A DNA stretch of 34,245 bases from Acidobacteriota bacterium (GTDB lineage Bacteria > Acidobacteriota > Terriglobia > Acidiferrales > 2-02-FULL-67-57): the NCBI GenBank assembly GCA_016210855.1, contig JACQTJ010000127.1, positions 1 through 34,245 on the forward strand, in the 5' to 3' direction. A program made the translations under genes and the position numbers. Positions within the stretch are counted from its first letter, which is position 1, and the number at the start of each line of letters is the position of its first letter. The notes under the pieces are model-generated. The model ran no database searches. It saw nothing but the letters and a program-made list of their open reading frames with translations, and was not told where the DNA came from. Below, one piece after another: positions 2,780 to 33,673 of the stretch.

Positions 2780-3505
2780 ATGCCGCTTGTGCTGCCGCGC
2801 TTCTATGCCATAATCGACCGCTCTCCCGAGGCGTCGGGACGGCCTGAACTCTCCTTGGACGAGATTGTTCGCGCCCTCACGGGGGCGGGGGTTCGACTGA
2901 TTCAGGTCCGCGCCAAACAGGCCCCGCCACGGGCGGGGCAGGCCACCAGCCCCGCCGTCGGCGGGGCCAGCCAGGCGTTGCTCTCTGACACCCGGCGGAT
3001 CCTCTCTCTGGCTCCCTCCGGCTCTCTCGTGATCGTGAACGACCGTGCCGACGTCGCCTGCTTGGCCGGGGCCGCGGGCGTGCACCTCGGCCAGGACGAC
3101 CTCCCGGTAGCCGCCGCTCGCCAGCTGCTCGGTCCGGACCGCCTCATCGGCTGGTCCACCCACAACCAGGAGCAGGTGAAGGCGGGGGATGCGTTGCCGA
3201 TAGACTACCTGGCCTTCGGGCCGGTGTTTCCCACCGCCACCAAGCCGAACGCCGCCCCCGTGGTGGGGCTGGCGGCCCTGCGGGCGGCGCGGGCGCTCAC
3301 CAAGAAGCCGCTGGTCGCCATCGGCGGCATCACTCCGGCGAACGCGGCCCAGGCCCTCGAAGCTGGAGCGGATTCGGTGGCGGTGATCAGCGGCTGGCTT
3401 GTCCCGACGAAGGAGGGGCTGGCCCCGCCAACGGCGGGCCTGGCCGCCGGGGAGCTGGCCGCGCGCCTGGAGGAATTCCGCCGGGCGCTAGGACGGCTGG
3501 ACTAG
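2780..3505 (+). CDS. thiE: Thiamine phosphate synthase
   Basis: GVRLIQVRAKQ, IVNDRADVACLAGAAGVHLGQDDLP, IGWSTHNQEQ, DYLAFGPVFPTATK, PLVAIGGITPANAAQALEAGADSVAVISG. Confidence 0.92.
   Translation: MPLVLPRFYAIIDRSPEASGRPELSLDEIVRALTGAGVRLIQVRAKQAPPRAGQATSPAVGGASQALLSDTRRILSLAPSGSLVIVNDRADVACLAGAAGVHLGQDDLPVAAARQLLGPDRLIGWSTHNQEQVKAGDALPIDYLAFGPVFPTATKPNAAPVVGLAALRAARALTKKPLVAIGGITPANAAQALEAGADSVAVISGWLVPTKEGLAPPTAGLAAGELAARLEEFRRALGRLD
2921..2972. repeat. Tandem GC-rich palindromes inside thiE (GCCCCGCC-acg-GGCGGGGC and GCCCCGCC-gtc-GGCGGGGC)
   Basis: Two perfect 8-bp stems with 3-nt loops at 2921-2939 and 2949-2967; 2945-2972 matches 33635-33662 at 27/28. Confidence 0.85.
3417..3444 (-). repeat. 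Inverted copy of the 28-bp palindromic element near the thiE 3' end
   Basis: GGCTGGCCCCGCCAACGGCGGGCCTGGC is 25/28 identical to the reverse complement of 2945-2972. Confidence 0.75.
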
Positions 3506-5074: not shown

Positions 5075-6535
5075 ATGGCGAGTCGCCTGCTCATCACCAA
5101 GCCCCTGAGCCTACTGCAACAGGAAGCCGCCGACACCGAGCACGGCCTGAAACGAGCCCTGCGCGCCATTGACCTGGTGATGCTGGGCGTGGGCGCCATC
5201 ATCGGCGCCGGCATCTTCGTGCTCACCGGGAACGCCGCCGCCTCCCACGCCGGCCCCGCCATCGTGCTCTCCATGGTGCTGGCCGGAGTGGGCTGCACCT
5301 TCGCCGGCCTCTGCTACGCGGAGATGGCCTCGATGATTCCCATCGCCGGCAGCGCCTACACCTACTCCTACGCCACCCTGGGGGAGTTCTTCGCCTGGGT
5401 CATCGGCTGGGACTTGATCCTGGAGTACGCCCTGGGGGCGGCTACGGTGTCGGTGGGCTGGTCGGGTCTGGTGGTGAGCTTCCTCCACGATATTGGCATC
5501 GCCATCCCGGCGCGTTTGACCGCCGGGCCCTTCCAGATGGTGAGCCTGCCGGATGGCAGTCAGGTTGCCGGGTTCGTCAATCTTCCCGCCCTGCTGATTG
5601 TTCTGTTTGTCACCTTCCTCCTGGTGGTGGGCATCCGGGAGTCCGCCAACGTCAATAACTTCATCGTGTTTGTGAAGGTCGGGGTGGTGGTGGCGTTCAT
5701 CCTGGCCGGCATCGGCTACATCAACCGCGACAACTGGACCCCGTTCATTCCTCCGAACACCGGCACCTTCGGGGCGTTCGGCTGGAGCGGCATCCTGGCC
5801 GGCGCGGGCGTGATTTTCTTTGCCTACATCGGCTTTGATGCCGTCTCCACCGCCGCCCAGGAGGCCCGCAACCCCCAGCGGGACTTGCCCATTGGCATCC
5901 TGGGCAGCCTGGTGGTGTGCACCATCCTGTACATCCTCTTCGCCGCGGTGCTCACGGGCGTCGTGCCCTACTCGAAGCTCAACACCGCGGCCCCCGTGGC
6001 CGTGGGCGTCGACGCCATGAAGCTGGCCTGGCTGGGCACGGCCATGAAGCTCGGCGCCATCGCCGGCTTGACCTCCGTCATGCTGGTCATGCTGCTCGGC
6101 CAGCCCCGCATCTTCTGGACCATGGCCGGCGACGGCCTGCTGCCGAGCTGGTTCACCCGAGTCCACCCCCGCTTCCGCACCCCCTACATCACCACCATTC
6201 TCACCGGCGTCGCCGTGGCTGTCACCGGCGCCCTGTTCCCCATCGGAGTGCTGGGCAACCTCGTCAGTATCGGCACCCTGTTCGCCTTTGTGCTGGTCTG
6301 TGGCGGGGTGATCTGGATGCGGCGCCGCCAGCCCACCGTGCCTCGGCCCTTCAGGACTCCCTGGGTCCCCGTGGTTCCGATCCTGGGAATGGTCATTTGC
6401 TTTGCCATGATGCTGGGCCTGGGCCGGGAGACCTGGGAGCGGTTGATCATCTGGCTGATCATCGGCTTGGTCATCTACTTCACCTACGGCATCCGCCACA
6501 GCCGCATCGCCCGCCTGCGCGCCAGCGGCGATTGA
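5075..6535 (+). CDS. APC-family amino acid permease (cationic amino acid transporter-like)
   Basis: LKRALRAIDLVMLGVGAIIGAGIFVLTG, CYAEMASMIPIAGSAYTYSYATLGE, FFAYIGFDAVSTAAQEARNPQRDLPIGILGSL. Confidence 0.92.
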   Translation: MASRLLITKPLSLLQQEAADTEHGLKRALRAIDLVMLGVGAIIGAGIFVLTGNAAASHAGPAIVLSMVLAGVGCTFAGLCYAEMASMIPIAGSAYTYSYATLGEFFAWVIGWDLILEYALGAATVSVGWSGLVVSFLHDIGIAIPARLTAGPFQMVSLPDGSQVAGFVNLPALLIVLFVTFLLVVGIRESANVNNFIVFVKVGVVVAFILAGIGYINRDNWTPFIPPNTGTFGAFGWSGILAGAGVIFFAYIGFDAVSTAAQEARNPQRDLPIGILGSLVVCTILYILFAAVLTGVVPYSKLNTAAPVAVGVDAMKLAWLGTAMKLGAIAGLTSVMLVMLLGQPRIFWTMAGDGLLPSWFTRVHPRFRTPYITTILTGVAVAVTGALFPIGVLGNLVSIGTLFAFVLVCGGVIWMRRRQPTVPRPFRTPWVPVVPILGMVICFAMMLGLGRETWERLIIWLIIGLVIYFTYGIRHSRIARLRASGD

Positions 6536-32908: not shown

Positions 32909-33673
32909 ATGGTGCAGCGCCTGCAGAACCAAGTCGTGTTGGTGACGGGCGGGGCGCGGCGGGTGGGGCGGGCGATTTCCTTAGCGCTCGCCGGCGCCGG
33001 GGCGCGGGTGGTGGTGAATTACAACACCTCGAAGGCCGAGGCCGCCGACACGGTGCGGGAAATCGAGCGGCAGGGGAGCCGGGCGGTGGCGGTCGAGGCG
33101 GACGTCAGCCAGCCGGACGAAGTGAAGAAGCTCGTGGCCGCGGCCGAAAAAGAGTTTGGGGGCGTGGATATTCTGGTGAACAATGCCGGCCTCTTCGCGC
33201 CCTTCGAGTGGGACAAGATTACCGAGGCCGACTGGGACCGGTTCATGAACGTGAATCTGAAATCGCAGTTTTTTTGCGCGCAGGCGGTGGCGGCGGGGAT
33301 GAAGCGGCGGGGTCGGGGGGCGATTGTGAATATTGCCTCGCTGGGCGGCTTGATGGTGTGGCCGAGCTACATCCCCTATGGGGTGTCGTAGGCGGGGGGG
33401 GTGATCCTGACGCGCCTGCTGGGCCGGGCGCTGGCGCCGGAGATTCGCGTCAATGGGGTGGCCCCCGGCAGTATCCAGTTCCCGGGCGAGAAGCCCGACC
33501 CGAACTACATCCGCCGGGCCCCGCTCCAGAAGACCGGCACGGCGGACGACATCGCCCGCACGGTGCTGTTCCTTTGCACGGAAGCGGAGTTCATCACCGG
33601 CCAAATTCTTGTCGTGGACGGTGGCTACTCGCTCACCAGCCCCGCCCTCGGCGGGGCCAGCCTGGGCGGCTAG
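32909..33673 (+). pseudogene. SDR-family oxidoreductase (FabG-like) with in-frame TAG (33389-33391) at the catalytic Lys of YxxxK
   Basis: VVLVTGGARRVGRAI...NNAGLF...YIPYGVS-TAG-AGGVILTRLLGRALAPEIRVNGVAPGSIQFPGEK...VVDGGYSL all in one frame. Confidence 0.88.
33635..33662 (+). repeat. 28-bp palindromic element copy at the 3' end of the SDR
   Basis: ACCAGCCCCGCCCTCGGCGGGGCCAGCC, 27/28 to 2945-2972, translated in the same frame (TSPALGGAS). Confidence 0.85.

Follow-up and report, generated by a model that had tools for sequence, protein, structure and literature searches.

The window analysed here (the whole stretch of 34,245 nt, positions 1 to 34,245 of contig JACQTJ010000127.1 in assembly GCA_016210855.1 of an Acidobacteriota bacterium) contains a thiE gene at positions 2780–3505 of the forward strand. 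It encodes a thiamine phosphate synthase of 241 amino acids (Pfam PF02581, E = 4.3e-51), and alignment with 31 relatives shows that it carries two in-frame insertions of 14 amino acids each. The inserted DNA is built of copies of a 19 bp palindrome, two 8 bp inverted arms with 3 bp between them, which is probably a minimal mobile element.

The first insertion contains two perfect copies 9 nt apart: GCCCCGCC-ACG-GGCGGGGC at 2921–2939, flanked by a direct repeat of AG (2919–2920 and 2940–2941) and encoding APPRAGQ, and GCCCCGCC-GTC-GGCGGGGC at 2949–2967, flanked by CA (2947–2948 and 2968–2969) and encoding SPAVGGA. An earlier note on this DNA had described these two adjacent hairpins, and was also right that a 28-mer spanning the second recurs with 27 of 28 bases at 33635–33662 in the same reading frame (TSPAVGGAS and TSPALGGAS); no such match is expected by chance, as judged from 100 shuffles of the window. 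The recurrence holds another perfect copy, GCCCCGCC-CTC-GGCGGGGC at 33639–33657, again with a CA direct repeat (33637–33638 and 33658–33659), in a gene for a short-chain dehydrogenase/reductase (32909–33673, forward strand; identified from its translation by Pfam PF00106, E = 3.3e-42) whose C terminus it lengthens by TSPALGGASLGG.

The second thiE insertion, at 3401–3440, had been overlooked, as had the 2 bp direct repeats around the copies. It appears to be a decayed pair, so that thiE would hold four copies in all. The segment GTCCCGAC-GAA-GGAGGGGC at 3401–3419 has three mismatches and is flanked by TT and TG; it is plausibly a copy whose first flank has mutated from TG. In tandem with it is GCCCCGCC-AAC-GGCGGGCC at 3422–3440, which has one mismatch and lies between direct repeats of TG (3420–3421 and 3441–3442). 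When two 21 bp units are removed from each site the encoded protein reads RAKQATSQALL and ISGWLAAGEL, where the close homologue in genome G005 (69% by HMMER) has RAKQASSGALL and ISGWLAAEDI. Neither this homologue nor any of the 30 other aligned relatives has either insertion, so the loop is not a shared feature of ThiE orthologues, in agreement with the earlier note. Every listed invariant residue is retained in the window protein. In an AlphaFold model (mean predicted local distance difference test score (pLDDT) 86, predicted template modelling score 0.85) the barrel is otherwise confidently predicted, and the insertions, residues 48–61 and 206–219, are low-confidence segments (pLDDT about 57 and under 50, respectively) that are modelled as loops outside the helices and strands, except that helix 60–77 begins within the first of them.

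Abundance, lineage and unit structure

Searches with the pattern GCCCCGCC-nnn-GGCGGGGC find eight perfect copies in the 1.88 Mb metagenome-assembled genome (MAG) from which the window comes (G000), against none for the reversed pattern used as control and 0.034 expected from a first-order Markov model; the suggestion that the motif recurs elsewhere in the genome is therefore borne out. Perfect copies are likewise present in four other genomes of the same family (G001, three; G002, five; G005, ten; G008, one) and in G003, which belongs to a second family of the order and has nine. Among 299 genomes of the class the enrichment is limited to the window's own family and this one sister family, every other genome having 0 or 1, and among 396 genomes across the phylum only two more, G451 and G534, stand out. 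When loop lengths of 0–30 were scanned, a length of 3 prevailed in family f1 and in G003; the latter also has four copies with a 2 nt loop, and most cases with long loops look like extended terminator stems. Matches with three mismatches are uninformative (240 against 216 in the control), and all further site analysis used copies with at most one mismatch. These comprise 86 distinct sites in the six genomes, all of them MAGs in many contigs, and their DNA was taken as stretches around the matches.

An exact 2 bp direct repeat borders the palindrome at 35 of the 86 sites; flank permutations give a mean of 8.4 and a maximum of 21 in 10,000, and none of 20,000 in a second run reached 35. When left and right flanks are compared at all pairs of offsets, an excess of identical bases appears solely at the two combinations forming this repeat (45 against 22 expected and 46 against 26). 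The duplicated dinucleotide itself varies (CA, TG, TT, CT, AG, TC and others), and the flank consensus on both sides is GC-YN, with GC outside the dinucleotide and a pyrimidine favoured as its first base. Such repeats and flanks are as would be left by a staggered 2 bp cut at GC-YR-GC-like targets. The unit is thus a single 19 bp palindrome plus a 2 bp target duplication, and not the two-hairpin element that had been proposed, since most sites have single palindromes and a tRNA-Ser fragment (see below) has two that are separately placed; two units merely happen to occupy each of the thiE sites. Each unit adds 19 + 2 = 21 bp, or seven codons, and has no stop in any frame.

Insertions in genes

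By a codon-usage score, 23 of the 86 sites lie within genes, 16 near C termini, six near N termini and 27 in non-coding DNA, with 14 unclear; because the score was trained partly on the same genes these counts are approximate. All three frames are in use (17, 16 and 12 sites in the coding-model frames), giving peptides of the form APPxAGx, xPAxGGA or xPRxxRG. The product of an in-gene copy is a short hydrophilic or glycine-proline-rich linker.

Codon-level alignment of orthologues shows exact seven-residue insertions in PyrD, MnmA, DinB, UbiA, LipB, an M42-like peptidase and the putative LpxD and MobA, and an exact 14-residue insertion, that is two units, in ArgG. The names PyrD, MnmA, Pol IV, LipB, UbiA-like, FabD, MutM and ArgG are backed by NCBIfam, whereas the assignments of LpxD and MobA come from the sequences alone. 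Presence differs among close relatives: the UbiA insert is found in G000 only, and those in MnmA, DinB and LpxD in G002 only. The PyrD insert is common to G005, G002 and G008 and the peptidase insert to G000 and G008, and precise empty orthologues of the two are found in G001 and G002, respectively. These two shared inserts have diverged and are therefore old. A C-terminal copy in FabD is common to G000 and G005. MutM was left uncounted: a C-terminal copy there is plausible, but relatives differ in how the protein ends and a paralogue in the same genome ends similarly. We note that in the argG-argH region of G002 (L066) the two tandem units extend ArgG by APPTAGQAPPPAGQ immediately ahead of argH.

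Origin of the palindrome

We consider it probable, at roughly 70%, that this is a minimal 19 bp palindrome that inserts with a 2 bp target duplication, mobile and non-autonomous, in Terriglobia-like Acidobacteriota of one family-level lineage. The comparisons above establish its anatomy, and its mobility is inferred. It would move as a selfish element through an enzyme acting in trans, which would make staggered cuts at the target so that 2 bp are duplicated. The palindrome ends rebuild a GC-nn-GC target at each junction, and this accounts for the tandem copies. Copies would persist in genes by keeping the frame and by their placement in loops. More tentatively, the palindrome could be among the smallest mobile DNAs known, consisting of two abutting 8 bp ends and spreading through genes as seven-codon cassettes by means of an undescribed recombinase.

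Several observations weigh against mobility. No transposase gene or longer element bounded by these palindromes was found in the 729 kb of stretches around the matches or at the Y1_Tnp loci discussed below; three pairs of palindromes with a shared dinucleotide in the 729 kb were considered as the ends of longer elements and none is convincing. The copies are known from genome comparison, and no insertion event has been observed. Fifty-one of the 86 sites have no perfect 2 bp repeat (the two flanks differ by one base at 21 and by both at 30), many of which decay could account for, but one non-matching combination, TT..AG, occurs four times. The loop is far more variable than the stem, a comparison partly biased since sites were picked by their stem, and simple copying and pasting from a master copy would not predict this. 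The PyrD and peptidase inserts are patchy on a tree of five genes; the nested absences suggest that inserts may also be lost exactly, for which slippage from one direct repeat to the other is a possible route, on a tree that is only partly resolved and built from MAGs. In addition, FtsY and Cox3 were rejected as clean insertions, their sites being within variable linkers.

The most serious alternative, though an unlikely one, is that no mobile element is involved and that the palindromes are produced in place at GC-nn-GC sites by replication errors, for instance slippage or template switching. In its favour are the shortness of the stem, the likeness of the junctions to the palindrome ends, and a loop that varies as though newly made each time. 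However, the same 16 stem bases occur in unrelated genes that have little flank match beyond GC-YN, which would not be predicted from local templating, and the excess is limited to two families.

We give somewhat less weight to the palindrome being a repetitive extragenic palindromic (REP) element that depends for its movement on a REP-associated tyrosine transposase (RAYT, Y1_Tnp). Like a REP it is GC-rich, short and hairpin-forming, and its size fits; Y1_Tnp genes occur in each of the six genomes (1 to 7 each), and REPs within genes are known in other species, namely Opitutus terrae and Rickettsia conorii (PMC3733652). On the other hand, none of the 28 Y1_Tnp loci has the palindrome (with up to two mismatches) within about 1.5 kb, and many have their own, different hairpins on either side. 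The resemblance to REP/RAYT systems lies in short hairpin repeats with many copies, some of them intragenic; the palindrome differs in having no GTAG or CGTC tag, only the GC-YN flank consensus on both sides, in having no linked Y1_Tnp gene, in that roughly half of its sites are coding, and in its 2 bp target duplication. Nor would single-strand insertion of the IS200/IS605 type be expected to leave a 2 bp target duplication of varying sequence.

It is improbable that the palindrome is a selected functional signal (a terminator, an RNA-stability hairpin or a protein-binding site) and not selfish DNA. About a third of the sites are non-coding, the copy at L071:2860 precedes a T-run and forms a stable hairpin, as in an intrinsic terminator, and the eight copies in G451 have a constant loop and look like terminators (the G534 copies examined are mostly in apparent non-coding sequence). 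Yet 45 of the 86 sites score as lying within coding sequence or at its ends, some of them midway along enzymes, and presence at the same gene differs among close relatives. Last, an assembly or binning artefact is very improbable: the six genomes are all fragmented and a second allele of the window locus is found in the same bin, but the same structure occurs in six separately assembled genomes, the orthologue differences are exactly 21 or 42 bp, and the inserts in PyrD and the peptidase are both shared and diverged.

Related systems and neighbouring sequences

No description of a 19 bp palindromic element of this kind was found in the literature, as covered by open-licence papers. The nearest described case we found is that of the GC clusters of yeast mitochondria, to which the palindrome may be likened by analogy. 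Clusters such as GC42 share with it short direct repeats, a stem more conserved than the loop and presence that differs from strain to strain (PMC4478555); GC42 differs in being 42 nt long and in a eukaryotic organelle, whereas the palindrome is 19 bp long, lies in bacterial chromosomes and has a more variable duplicated dinucleotide. If mobile, the palindrome would be a bacterial counterpart of these clusters, whose own mobilising mechanism is unsettled. Tandem arrays of yeast mitochondrial GC clusters are mentioned in the title of a paper that PMC4478555 cites, Weiller et al. (1989).

The earlier note had compared the thiE insert with Rickettsia palindromic elements (RPEs), which are about 150 bp long, form ten families and encode a conserved peptide or peptide open reading frame (ORF) (PMC10969869). 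The comparison is apt in part. In both cases palindromic repeats, proposed to be selfish, lie in frame within unrelated metabolic genes and are tolerated as an added peptide, here a short linker. The palindrome is nevertheless not an RPE: at 19 bp, adding seven residues with a 2 bp direct repeat, it falls short of the RPE size of about 100–150 bp, and its use of three frames leaves no conserved encoded peptide. With bacterial miniature inverted-repeat transposable elements it shares the nature of a non-autonomous short inverted-repeat DNA with a target-site duplication, including terminal inverted repeats; it differs in having an interior of only 3 bp between its 8 bp arms, and the 729 kb yielded no insertion sequence that could be its parent. 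Were it mobile, it would mark how small a transposable element can be and indicate that selfish sequence can enter coding DNA by frame neutrality. Core enzymes would then also gain seven-residue insertions from it, and these would form a dated natural series in which the tolerance of proteins for new loops could be tested.

Some copies lie within a common intergenic repeat, TGTCATTCCGAG..GAGGAATCT. A short intergenic repeat that hosts the palindrome (L110, L112, L113, L115 and L135 in G005; L164–L166 in G008) has the plain form TGTCATTCTGAGCGCAGCGAAGAATCT, and other copies of it have different hairpins at the same spot. At L070 6392–6820 (G000:C65) an incomplete duplicate of the tRNA-Ser(CGA) 5' half, with two palindromes, lies upstream of an intact tRNA-Ser, and a small GIY-YIG nuclease ORF (79 amino acids, at 6492) lies between the two; together they make up a small element located at a tRNA gene. 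Another palindrome family, GCCTGCCTrCnGCAGGCAGGC, has 26 members in 181 kb and, in the stretches read, occurs in G005 alone (L107, L112, L113, L126, L130, L139 and others); 2 bp direct repeats are not in excess around it.

In the window, the short-chain dehydrogenase gene has an in-frame TAG at 33389–33391 in place of the catalytic lysine of its YxxxK motif, so it is either a pseudogene or contains a sequence error. The second allele of the window locus (G000:C22:25256-25604; L072 8257–8605) joins window base 256 almost straight to thiE, with 96% and 98.6% identity. The extra 2.5 kb of the window, 257–2777, encodes an HNH endonuclease (339–1265) and an N6/N4 DNA methylase (1262–2623), which are likely a restriction-modification module.
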